Of a stretch of DNA of 35,526 bases, positions 10,222-18,649 are shown in pieces. Every line of letters starts with the position of its first letter. The stretch's first letter is position 1. The position numbers and the translations under genes are program-made. Under the pieces are notes generated by a model. That model was not told the DNA's origin, ran no database searches, and saw only the letters and a program-made list of their open reading frames with translations. Origin of the DNA: Spirochaetota bacterium (GTDB taxonomy: Bacteria; Spirochaetota; Spirochaetia; Treponematales; UBA12059); contig JAKLDN010000012.1 in assembly GCA_022703505.1 (NCBI GenBank), positions 1-35,526 on the forward strand, read 5' to 3'.

Positions 10222-10245
10222 CCCCTTCCAGAACGTGGAACCAGA

Positions 10246-10355
10246 GTAAGGACAGGATTAACAAGATGATAAACAGATGAACAAGATAGAGAATAACTAT
10301 TTTATATATATACATTTATCCTGTATATCCGAATTCCATCCTGTCCATCCTGTCA
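10246..10355. repeat. AT-rich ACAGGAT-word inverted repeat element
   Basis: In the 196-base gap before the outer-membrane protein, the left arm (from 10246) reads as repeats of words like GGACAGGATTAACAAGATG and AACAGATGAACAAGATA; the right arm (about 10315-10355) holds their complement, ATCCTGT three times (context CATCCTGTCCATCCTGTCA). The middle is TATATATATACATTTA. Composition is far below genome GC. It resembles short intergenic inverted repeats made of a 9-10 base word. No open frame is present. Confidence 0.65.
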
Positions 10356-10384
10356 AATATTTCTGAAAAACCCGACCGGCGCGC

Positions 10385-10417: not shown

Positions 10418-11398
10418 ATGAAACGGTTTGTTCTAGTCCTTGCGGCCCTGTCGATCCTCGCCGCGGGCGTGTCGGCCCAGACTCTCGACGGATTCCAGAC
10501 CGCCTTCCAGACCTTCGCGGAGGACATGGCCGGGGTCCTGGCCGCCAACTCCACGGTCGGGAACGTCTGGTCCCACGCCTACGTGGGGGGCTTCCCCCGC
10601 TTCGGCGCCGGACTGGCCGTGGGCGCCAACTTCGTGCCCGCGGATTCCGCGGAGCCTCTCTTCGCTGCGGCGGGCGAGACTCTGCCCGCTGAGCTCGCGA
10701 ATCTCGGCATTCCCATCCCCGCCGCGGCCCTGTCCTTCAAGATCGGGCTTCCATTCCTGAACATGGACGTGGGTGTCAAGGGCGGCCTCATCCCGGACTC
10801 GGCTTCCGGAGTATTGTCGGGGCAGGGAATCGAGGCTACTTACGAAACATTGGGAATCAATGTAAGGTATGCGATTCTCAAGGATCGCTTGATGATTCCG
10901 GCCGTATCCATCGGGGCGAGCTGGAATTATCTTAAGGGATCTATAGCCACGGGATTAGGCGCAGGAGATACTACATACACAGACGGTGCAACATATTCAG
11001 TTACTGTCTCGGATCCCGATCTAACACTTGACTGGCAGGCGAACACATTCGATTTCACCCTTCAAGCCTCAAAGAACCTTTTAATCTTCACGCCGTATGT
11101 CGGCGCAGGTTTTACCATTGGTGTTGCCAGTACGAGCGGAGGTATGGCAGCAACAACGACTGTAGCAGATTATAATACGAGTGGTAGCAATGCGGATGAA
11201 ATCGCTGCTTTGGAAGCTGCTGGAATTTCCGTTTCTGATCAAGGGTTTTCCGTCTCTTCAGAGGTGACCACCCCGACGATCCGTATTTACGGCGGCACCA
11301 GCATCAACATCCTGATCCTCAAGCTGGACCTCATGGCCTCCTACGTCCCGGCCACCCAGGCCCTGGGCGCCCAGGTGATGGCCCGGATCCAGCTCTAG
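10418..11398 (+). CDS. Spirochaete-type outer-membrane beta-barrel protein, mosaic
   Basis: A 326-residue protein with a clear signal peptide (MKRFVLVLAALSILAAGVSA, cut before QTLDG). The mature part alternates hydrophobic and polar residues (FGAGLAVGANF, LMIPAVSIGASWNYL, TFDFTLQASKNLLIFTPYVGAGFTIGV, NILILKLDLMASYVPA) as in a beta barrel, and ends VMARIQL without a C-terminal Phe. It resembles conserved treponeme outer-membrane proteins of unknown function. The coding sequence is mosaic: about 10830-11265 averages near 49% GC and uses rare A/T-ending codons, while both ends have the genome's high GC. The stretch includes the extracellular-loop-like GAGDTTYTDGATYS and ATTTVADYNTSGSNADE. This suggests replacement of the surface-exposed portion by DNA from elsewhere. 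Confidence 0.8.
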   Translation: MKRFVLVLAALSILAAGVSAQTLDGFQTAFQTFAEDMAGVLAANSTVGNVWSHAYVGGFPRFGAGLAVGANFVPADSAEPLFAAAGETLPAELANLGIPIPAAALSFKIGLPFLNMDVGVKGGLIPDSASGVLSGQGIEATYETLGINVRYAILKDRLMIPAVSIGASWNYLKGSIATGLGAGDTTYTDGATYSVTVSDPDLTLDWQANTFDFTLQASKNLLIFTPYVGAGFTIGVASTSGGMAATTTVADYNTSGSNADEIAALEAAGISVSDQGFSVSSEVTTPTIRIYGGTSINILILKLDLMASYVPATQALGAQVMARIQL

Positions 11399-16300: not shown

Positions 16301-18649
16301 TCACGACGGCAGGGCTATGGCTATGACTTCCTCCATGGTCTCCACGGGGTGGAAGGCGATACCCTTCTTCACGTGCTCGGGGATCTCGTCCAGGTCCTTC
16401 TCGTTGGCCTTGGGGATGATGATCTCCCGGATCTTGTTCCTCCGGGCGGCCACGGTCTTCTCCTTGAGGCCCCCGATGGGCAGGACCTGGCCGGTCAGGG
16501 AAAGCTCCCCGGTCATCGCCAGGCGGTCCTTGATCTTCCGGCCCAGGACCAGGGACAGGAGGGCCGTGGCCATGGTGATCCCCGCGGAGGGTCCGTCCTT
16601 CGGGGTGGCCCCCTCGGGGATGTGGAGGTGGATCTGCCGGCCCTCGAAATAGTCCGCCCCCACCCCATAGGACTCCGCGGCCAGGTGCCGCACGTGGGTG
16701 TATGCGATGCCGGCGGATTCCTGCATGACCGCCCCCATCTGGCCGGTCAGCTTGAAGCCTTCCTTTCCGGGATTGGCCACCGCCTCGATGATCAGGGTAT
16801 CCCCGCCCATGCTGGTCCACGCCAGGCCCACGGACATCCCGGGCCGGGTGGCCCGCTTGACCTCGTCCTCCCGGAACAGGGGCTTGCCCAGGTACTTCTG
16901 GACCGCGGGCTTGTCCACCTCGAATTTCGTCCCCCCCTTGTCCTCCAGGACGATGGACTTGGCGATCTTGCGGTGGATCTTGTCCAGGTACTTCTCGAAG
17001 TTGCGGACCCCGGCCTCCCGGGCGTAGGACTCGGCGATGAACATCAGGGCGTCCCGGGTGTAGCGGACGGTGCCCTTCTTCATGCCGTTCTTCTCCATGG
17101 ACTTGGGGATCAGGTAGTGCCGGGCGATCTCCAGCTTCTCGGTGTCCACATAGCCCGGCAGCTGGATGACCTCCATCCGGTCGATCAGGGGACCCGGGAT
17201 GGAATCCAGGGTGTTGGCCGTGACGATGAAGAAGACGTGGGAGATGTCGAAGGGAAGGTCCAGGTAGTGGTCCCGGAAGGCGAAATTCTGCTCGGGGTCC
17301 AGGGCCTCCAGGAGGGCGCTGGAAGGATCCCCCTGGTAGCTGACCCCCATCTTGTCGATCTCGTCGATCATGAAGACCGGATCCCGGCTCTTGGTGATCT
17401 TGAGTCCCTGGACGATCTTCCCGGGCAGGGCCCCCACGTAGGTCCGGCGGTGCCCCTTGATCTCCGCCTCGTCCCGCATCCCGCCCACGGAGAATCGGAA
17501 GAACTCCTTGCCCAGGGCCCGGGCGATGGACCGTCCCACGCTGGTCTTCCCGACCCCCGGAGGTCCCACCAGGCAGAGGATGGAGCCCTTGGCGTCCTTC
17601 TTGAGCTTCCGGACCGCCAGGTATTCGATGATGCGGTCCTTCACGTCCTTGAGGCCGTAGTGGTCGGATTCCAGGATGTCCTGGGCCTTCTTGAGGTCGA
17701 AATCCCCGTTGACCGCCGCCTTCCAGGGCAGGTTGCTGATCAGGTCCAGCCAGTTCCGGGTGACGATGAACTCCGAGGAGTTGGGGTCCATGAGGTTGAA
17801 CTTCTCGAGCTCCTGCTCCACCAGCTCCTTGACCTCCCCCTGGAAGGCGAAGCCCTCGATCTTGTCCTTGAACCTCTGGTAGTCCGAGCTCTTGGAGTCC
17901 GTGGGCATGCCCAGCTCGCCCTTGATGGCCTTGAGCTCCTCCTTGAGGAAGTATTCCCGCTGGTTCTTCTCGATCCGTTCGTTGATCTCCTGCTGGACCC
18001 GCTTCTGGATCTTGAGGAGCTCCTGTTCCTTCTTGATGAACAGGAGGACCCGCTCCATCCGGTCCTTGACGTCGAGCATCTCCAGGATCTTCTGCTGCTC
18101 GTTCTTGTCCAGGTTCAGGATGCTGGCGATGAAATCCGCGATCTTGCCCGGATGGTCGATGTTGACCATGTTGAGCCGCATCTCCTCGGAGAAGAGGGGA
18201 TTGTTCTCGGAAACCTGTTTCATCTCCGACAGGAGGGCCCGGGTCAGGGCCTTGACCTCGTCGGCGTCCTCGATCTCCTCGTCCAGGTATTCGACCGCGG
18301 CCACGATGGGACTCTGTTTCGTCAGGTACTTCTTGACCTTGAAGCGCTTCAGCGTGGAGATGAAGATGTTGACCGAGCCGTCCGGGAGGTTGATCCGCTT
18401 GACGATCTTGGCTACCGTCCCGACCTGGTGAAGGTCCTGGGAGGTGGGCTTGTCGAACTCGTTCTTGATCATCACGAGTCCTACGATCCCGTCGGCCTGC
18501 ATGGCCTCGTCCACGGTGCCGACGTCGTCCCCGTTCCCCACCATGATGGGGGTGAAGATTCCGGGGAATATGGGTTTTCCCATGAGGGGAATGATCGGGA
18601 TCTTGGCGGGCAGAAGTTGATCGATGGGGATGATCTCGTTGTCCGGCAT
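16301..18649 (-). CDS. lon: ATP-dependent protease Lon
   Basis: A 782-residue Lon. The N-terminal substrate-recognition domain begins IPIIPLMGKPIFPGIFTPI, followed by long helices (residues 150-300). The AAA+ domain has Walker A GPPGVGKTS near 358-366 and Walker B VFMIDEIDKMG near 425. The C-terminal protease has catalytic Ser in PKDGPSAGIT near 687 and Lys in GGLKEKTVAARR near 728. Lon degrades damaged and selected regulatory proteins in the cytoplasm. The ATG at 18649 follows AAAGGAG. The length is typical. The pfkB-like gene ends 124 bases upstream and a promoter lies in between. Confidence 0.97.
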   Translation of the reverse strand: MPDNEIIPIDQLLPAKIPIIPLMGKPIFPGIFTPIMVGNGDDVGTVDEAMQADGIVGLVMIKNEFDKPTSQDLHQVGTVAKIVKRINLPDGSVNIFISTLKRFKVKKYLTKQSPIVAAVEYLDEEIEDADEVKALTRALLSEMKQVSENNPLFSEEMRLNMVNIDHPGKIADFIASILNLDKNEQQKILEMLDVKDRMERVLLFIKKEQELLKIQKRVQQEINERIEKNQREYFLKEELKAIKGELGMPTDSKSSDYQRFKDKIEGFAFQGEVKELVEQELEKFNLMDPNSSEFIVTRNWLDLISNLPWKAAVNGDFDLKKAQDILESDHYGLKDVKDRIIEYLAVRKLKKDAKGSILCLVGPPGVGKTSVGRSIARALGKEFFRFSVGGMRDEAEIKGHRRTYVGALPGKIVQGLKITKSRDPVFMIDEIDKMGVSYQGDPSSALLEALDPEQNFAFRDHYLDLPFDISHVFFIVTANTLDSIPGPLIDRMEVIQLPGYVDTEKLEIARHYLIPKSMEKNGMKKGTVRYTRDALMFIAESYAREAGVRNFEKYLDKIHRKIAKSIVLEDKGGTKFEVDKPAVQKYLGKPLFREDEVKRATRPGMSVGLAWTSMGGDTLIIEAVANPGKEGFKLTGQMGAVMQESAGIAYTHVRHLAAESYGVGADYFEGRQIHLHIPEGATPKDGPSAGITMATALLSLVLGRKIKDRLAMTGELSLTGQVLPIGGLKEKTVAARRNKIREIIIPKANEKDLDEIPEHVKKGIAFHPVETMEEVIAIALPS

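Follow-up and report, generated by a model that had tools for sequence, protein, structure and literature searches.

The window, a 35,526-nucleotide stretch of DNA that we analysed at its full length, contains a gene (10418-11398, + strand) with GC-rich ends and a low-GC centre, and raises the question of whether that centre was exchanged for divergent DNA or changed where it stands. The gene is an open frame for a 326-residue exported protein, probably an outer-membrane beta-barrel. In particular, codons 1-21 (10418-10480, +) form, by eye, a putative signal peptide, with small residues preceding Gln21 after a basic start and a hydrophobic core. The flanking genes, labelled by inspection of their sequences, are presumably an M23-like peptidase gene and a glucokinase-like gene, and gene order around the locus is kept in both congeners. 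The genome, of which the window is contig C4, comprises 3.66 Mb in 14 contigs and is 98.5% complete; among relatives with names, the nearest were assembled from metagenomes and are labelled Treponema sp. and uncultured Spirochaetes.

Orthologues of the gene are present in 37 of 58 relatives' genomes, mostly in single copy. The orthologue alignment comprises 28 sequences (30 loci were taken and the partial genes L022 and L030 excluded; eight more weak orthologue matches are without a locus, and L031 and L032 duplicate the contigs of L002 and L003). Profile searches reveal a weak, distant likeness across this set to DUF6588 (PF20230; 23 of the 28 at E<=0.1) and to Lsa36, a family of surface proteins in spirochaetes (NF047512; 7 of the 28 at E<=0.1, best 2.1e-8), and one of the 28 matches a general outer-membrane barrel profile. 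The protein of the window itself scores 23.9 bits against DUF6588, under the curated cut-off of 27, and has no match to the NF047512 profile. Leptospira Lsa36 is counted among the fibrinogen-binding outer-membrane proteins in the excerpted text of PMC8657130. A literature search returned no papers on DUF6588, and a search with a profile of the 28 orthologues returned no solved structure.

The best two-change-point fit to GC3 places the low-GC tract at codons 129-281 (10802-11260, +), with a log-likelihood gain of 39.8; none of 60 shuffles exceeded 9.6. GC3 is 0.88 outside these limits and 0.43 inside; the reading frame is open across the whole tract, and the best-fit edges adjoin conserved blocks. 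GC at 10831-11265 is 47.8%, the lowest value for any 435 consecutive bases in the window, whose mean is 67.3% (sd 4.8%), and in a sample of 400 kb (20 stretches of 20 kb) from the 3.66-Mb genome, 0.1% of 26,100 segments of this length are as low. The sequence-only reading had placed a low-GC centre with an intact frame at 10830-11265; the centre and its open frame are confirmed, and the start had been set about 28 bases late. Among 373 called genes tested, the intragenic GC3 valley of this gene ranks second and is the strongest credible one. In the first-ranked gene, the valley (residues 19-498) precedes the recognised domain (528-803), so that we set it aside as a probable error in calling the start.

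The lowest-GC valley of the 400-kb sample (43.7%) lies in a lipoprotein-like gene (L068:4113-5036, contig C7 of genome G000) that encodes a caspase domain (PF00656, 1.1e-17); the gene has a GC-rich signal-peptide end and a low-GC body (GC3 0.47) and was possibly acquired. The same contig carries a low-GC open frame (L073:11821-12255) that, by eye, we take to resemble a REP-associated transposase.

We compared three genomes of the genus, one per species (the window species and two congeners), at fourfold-degenerate sites, which allow genes to be compared independently of protein change. Six neighbour genes have 996/1478 and 1011/1505 fourfold sites identical to the two congeners (0.65-0.67 across pairs). 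The GC-rich head, comprising codons 1-128 (10418-10801, +), has a similar identity (55/78 and 52/76), as for a segment inherited with its neighbours. The GC-rich tail, comprising codons 282-326 (11261-11398, +), is nearly identical to the congeners in the codon alignment (21/24 and 19/22) and is likely the downstream recombination block. Within the centre, 8/21 fourfold sites are identical to each congener at codons 129-176, and 7/32 and 9/31 at codons 177-265, where the congeners share 7/28 with one another; over codons 181-283, identities of 0.22 and 0.28 are close to the random expectation of 0.26 for that composition. The difference between centre (18/60) and ends (76/102) is significant (Fisher p=3.5e-8; p=2.4e-6 for the other congener). 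Within the gene, chance-level synonymous identity is thus limited to the centre, where much of the protein is nevertheless conserved. Specifically, codons 203-237 (11024-11128, +), a conserved pair of strands that separates the putative loops, have an amino-acid identity of 0.77-0.80, and their synonymous sites are saturated within the genus (2/13, 1/12, and 2/11 identical), whereas two close pairs from other genera have 17/21 and 14/18 of these sites identical.

Chance-level fourfold identity, in this case to congener G002, also occurs in codons 11-60 of the gene at 16301-18649 (- strand), which has 96% protein identity overall and a GC3 of 0.93 in the window species. This segment may be a second exchange. 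That gene too is locally saturated, and the surface-protein gene is thus not alone in its synonymous saturation.

Kinship changes within the gene as well. In the neighbour genes, amino-acid identity is 0.864 for the congener pair, against 0.888 and 0.886 for the window species with each congener, so that the congeners stand, if anything, further from each other than from the window species. At codons 129-176 (10802-10945, +), the two congeners are identical to one another at 48/48 residues, and the window species is identical to each at 38/48. The kinship order there is thus the reverse of the neighbour-gene ranking; in the GC3 heat map, the window species is also the only one of the genus with low GC3 at these codons. 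This is the pattern that replacement in the lineage of the window species predicts, and since ten residues are altered against the neighbour ranking, a shift in codon choice alone is insufficient at codons 129-176.

Alignment of the 28 orthologues places most indels of the centre in two segments flanked by amphipathic stretches: codons 177-202 (10946-11023, +), with low conservation, and codons 238-272 (11129-11233, +), with indels of up to 10 columns and the lowest conservation. Since the fold model failed (prediction from three sequences, mean pLDDT 29.2), we infer from the indels and the hydropathy alternation that these segments are surface loops. Both show a recurrent GC3 dip. Beyond the genus, 10 of the 15 high-GC3 orthologues have lower GC3 at the two segments (mean -0.13, p=0.009), and 5 have no dip; the strands that separate and precede the loops show no significant dip there (8/15, p=0.27). 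Both p-values are optimistic because the segment limits were set after the GC3 heat map had been viewed. The dips of these wider relatives are weaker than the low-GC centres of the genus and are confined to the two loops.

Both congeners have a low-GC3 core at codons 181-260. A low-GC centre shared by all relatives had been named in the sequence-only reading as the mark of an old property of the barrel, and with respect to the congeners' cores and the wider loop dips such sharing is what we find. The sharing does not extend further: at synonymous sites the cores of the congeners match neither the window species nor each other (7/28), and low GC at codons 129-176 is, within the genus, confined to the window species. 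Because the cores differ in this way, they point to a site that was repeatedly replaced rather than to one shared old centre, and on sequence comparison the centre of the gene appears to be a recurrent replacement site common to the genus.

Searches for a donor returned none. By protein search (E<=10), the only copy in the genome is the gene itself, and by DNA search the other matches in the same genome are at most 37 bases long (E>=2.85); the donor cassettes expected elsewhere in the genome are therefore absent by both searches. Neither 23 genomes from the family nor the phages, plasmids, and viral contigs searched yielded a donor of the centre, and an order-wide search of 390 genomes gave, beyond the congeners, a best match of 46% identity. 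The centre is 70-71% identical to the congeners in protein, above any other match, and is equidistant from the two (38/48 to each, then 58/86 and 56/86). The earlier proposal of recombination with foreign DNA is thus retained as to replacement by divergent DNA, for which chance-level synonymous identity in the centre only and the change of kinship order argue, and is corrected as to origin: a centre that is equidistant from the congeners and closest to them is not plainly foreign, and it probably derives from a lower-GC donor, as yet unsampled, within the genus or in a near sister of it. Homologues of ComEC and DprA are encoded in the genome, so that natural uptake of DNA is permitted, though only permitted.

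Just upstream of the gene lies an AT-rich inverted repeat about 120 bases long (10235-10357). It has 31 matches in the genome (itself included, most partial), occupies the same place in congener G002, is absent from congener G001, and looks like a small dispersed repeat. We set it aside as a cause of the mosaic centre, since such a centre also occurs in a congener without the repeat.

We observe changes of composition, synonymous divergence, and kinship within one open frame, and no donor within the genome, and we consider it probable that the gene is a mosaic surface-protein gene, its centre exchanged by homologous recombination and its ends inherited vertically. Both conserved, GC-rich ends would have descended together with the neighbouring genes; codons 129-281 would have been swapped for their counterpart in a diverged allele of lower GC, carried by an unsampled relative that belongs to the genus or lies close to it; and the cross-overs would lie in the conserved blocks that flank the centre. 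Separate exchanges would have taken place at the same site in the two congeners, with a core at about codons 177-265. The DNA may have entered by uptake through the ComEC and DprA homologues, and diversifying selection on the loops by phage, predator, or host, including the selection for antigenic or phage-receptor change proposed in the sequence-only reading, may have favoured the exchanges.

Several observations count against this reading: no donor was found, the centre is not plainly foreign, local saturation also occurs in the gene at 16301-18649, the low-GC core is common to the congeners, and a shift towards A/T-ending codons in itself lowers fourfold identity. The last two are accommodated by change in place, in which the genus had an old, low-GC, fast-changing centre that the lineage of the window species extended upstream, with no import; the GC3 dips at the loops in 10 of the 15 orthologues outside the genus are in keeping with it too. 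We consider this unlikely, and find its suggested causes, local codon selection or relaxed upkeep of GC-ending codons around the loops, likewise improbable. The strands between the loops are saturated here and not in the two pairs from other genera, and at codons 129-176 the window species differs in both protein and composition, contrary to the neighbour ranking. Moreover, the neighbour genes have variable 20-codon stretches that stay GC3-rich (bin means 0.75-0.90 where amino-acid identity is below 0.7, with identity under 0.5 in only 2 stretches of one comparison and 1 of the other), which argues that variability alone does not lower GC3.

A similarly small probability attaches to deeply diverged centres that were kept by frequency-dependent selection, passed between species, and drifted to A/T. 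Such alleles would be too different to recombine in the centre and would thus escape GC-raising biased conversion; GC content is positively associated with recombination in bacteria in the excerpted text of PMC4450053. Three species with three different saturated cores (7/32, 9/31, and 7/28), and a GC3 dip that coincides with the most divergent segments of the family, are in keeping with this reading. Sharing of alleles across species is, however, not seen among genomes numbering one per species; two processes are required, against one for import from a lower-GC donor; and 5 of the 15 orthologues outside the genus are without a loop dip. It is correspondingly improbable that the centre is an ancient cross-species allele under balancing selection and the GC3 dip a general footprint of balanced surface loops in bacteria with GC-rich genomes. 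A strain chimera assembled at a variable locus of a metagenome-derived genome, suggested by the two named relatives being metagenome-assembled, is very improbable given the intact frame, the assembly of the genome into 14 contigs, and the same layout with different centres in two separately assembled congeners.

Exchange of the centre by homologous recombination would make it probable that phages, predators, or hosts target this little-known spirochaete surface protein. Recombination in surface loops is as a mechanism already well established elsewhere. In the literature searched we found no direct precedent for low-GC loops of outer-membrane proteins, and one may exist elsewhere; our results suggest that a within-gene GC3 dip could flag replaced loops in GC-rich genomes for which strain collections are lacking.

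Among known systems, the target of a diversity-generating retroelement acquires adenine-directed changes from a template repeat, with a reverse transcriptase encoded nearby. The centre of the gene is unlike this pattern, since many synonymous sites, of every kind, are changed over 450 bases. The spirochaete surface protein TprK undergoes cassette-driven antigenic variation. The same holds for VlsE of Borrelia (PMC2632889). The likeness to these systems lies in a variable centre between constant ends in a spirochaete surface protein; the difference is that the genome studied here is without silent cassettes or paralogues, and in view of the absence of a second copy or cassette, switching of the vlsE/tprK kind is not indicated.

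Two comparisons are closer to exchange between lineages. The Treponema pallidum loci tp92 and mcp2-1 are mosaic and are ascribed to recombination between lineages in the portion of PMC3447947 consulted, and so resemble our gene as mosaic genes in a treponeme; there the exchange is between subspecies of a pathogen, whereas here it would be deeper, between species, in a spirochaete known from metagenomes. Neisseria porB is a mosaic porin gene with recombination in its loop regions, also between species, in the excerpted text of PMC10327514. Our gene shares with it conserved, probably barrel-coding parts and putative recombination in what may be loops, a likeness that does not imply homology to PorB. 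For porB, donors and thousands of alleles are known; our comparison has three genomes, a strong GC contrast, and no donor found. Like an interspecies mosaic, the gene at 10418-11398 has ends whose divergence is that of the genome and an interior that differs in both divergence and kinship.
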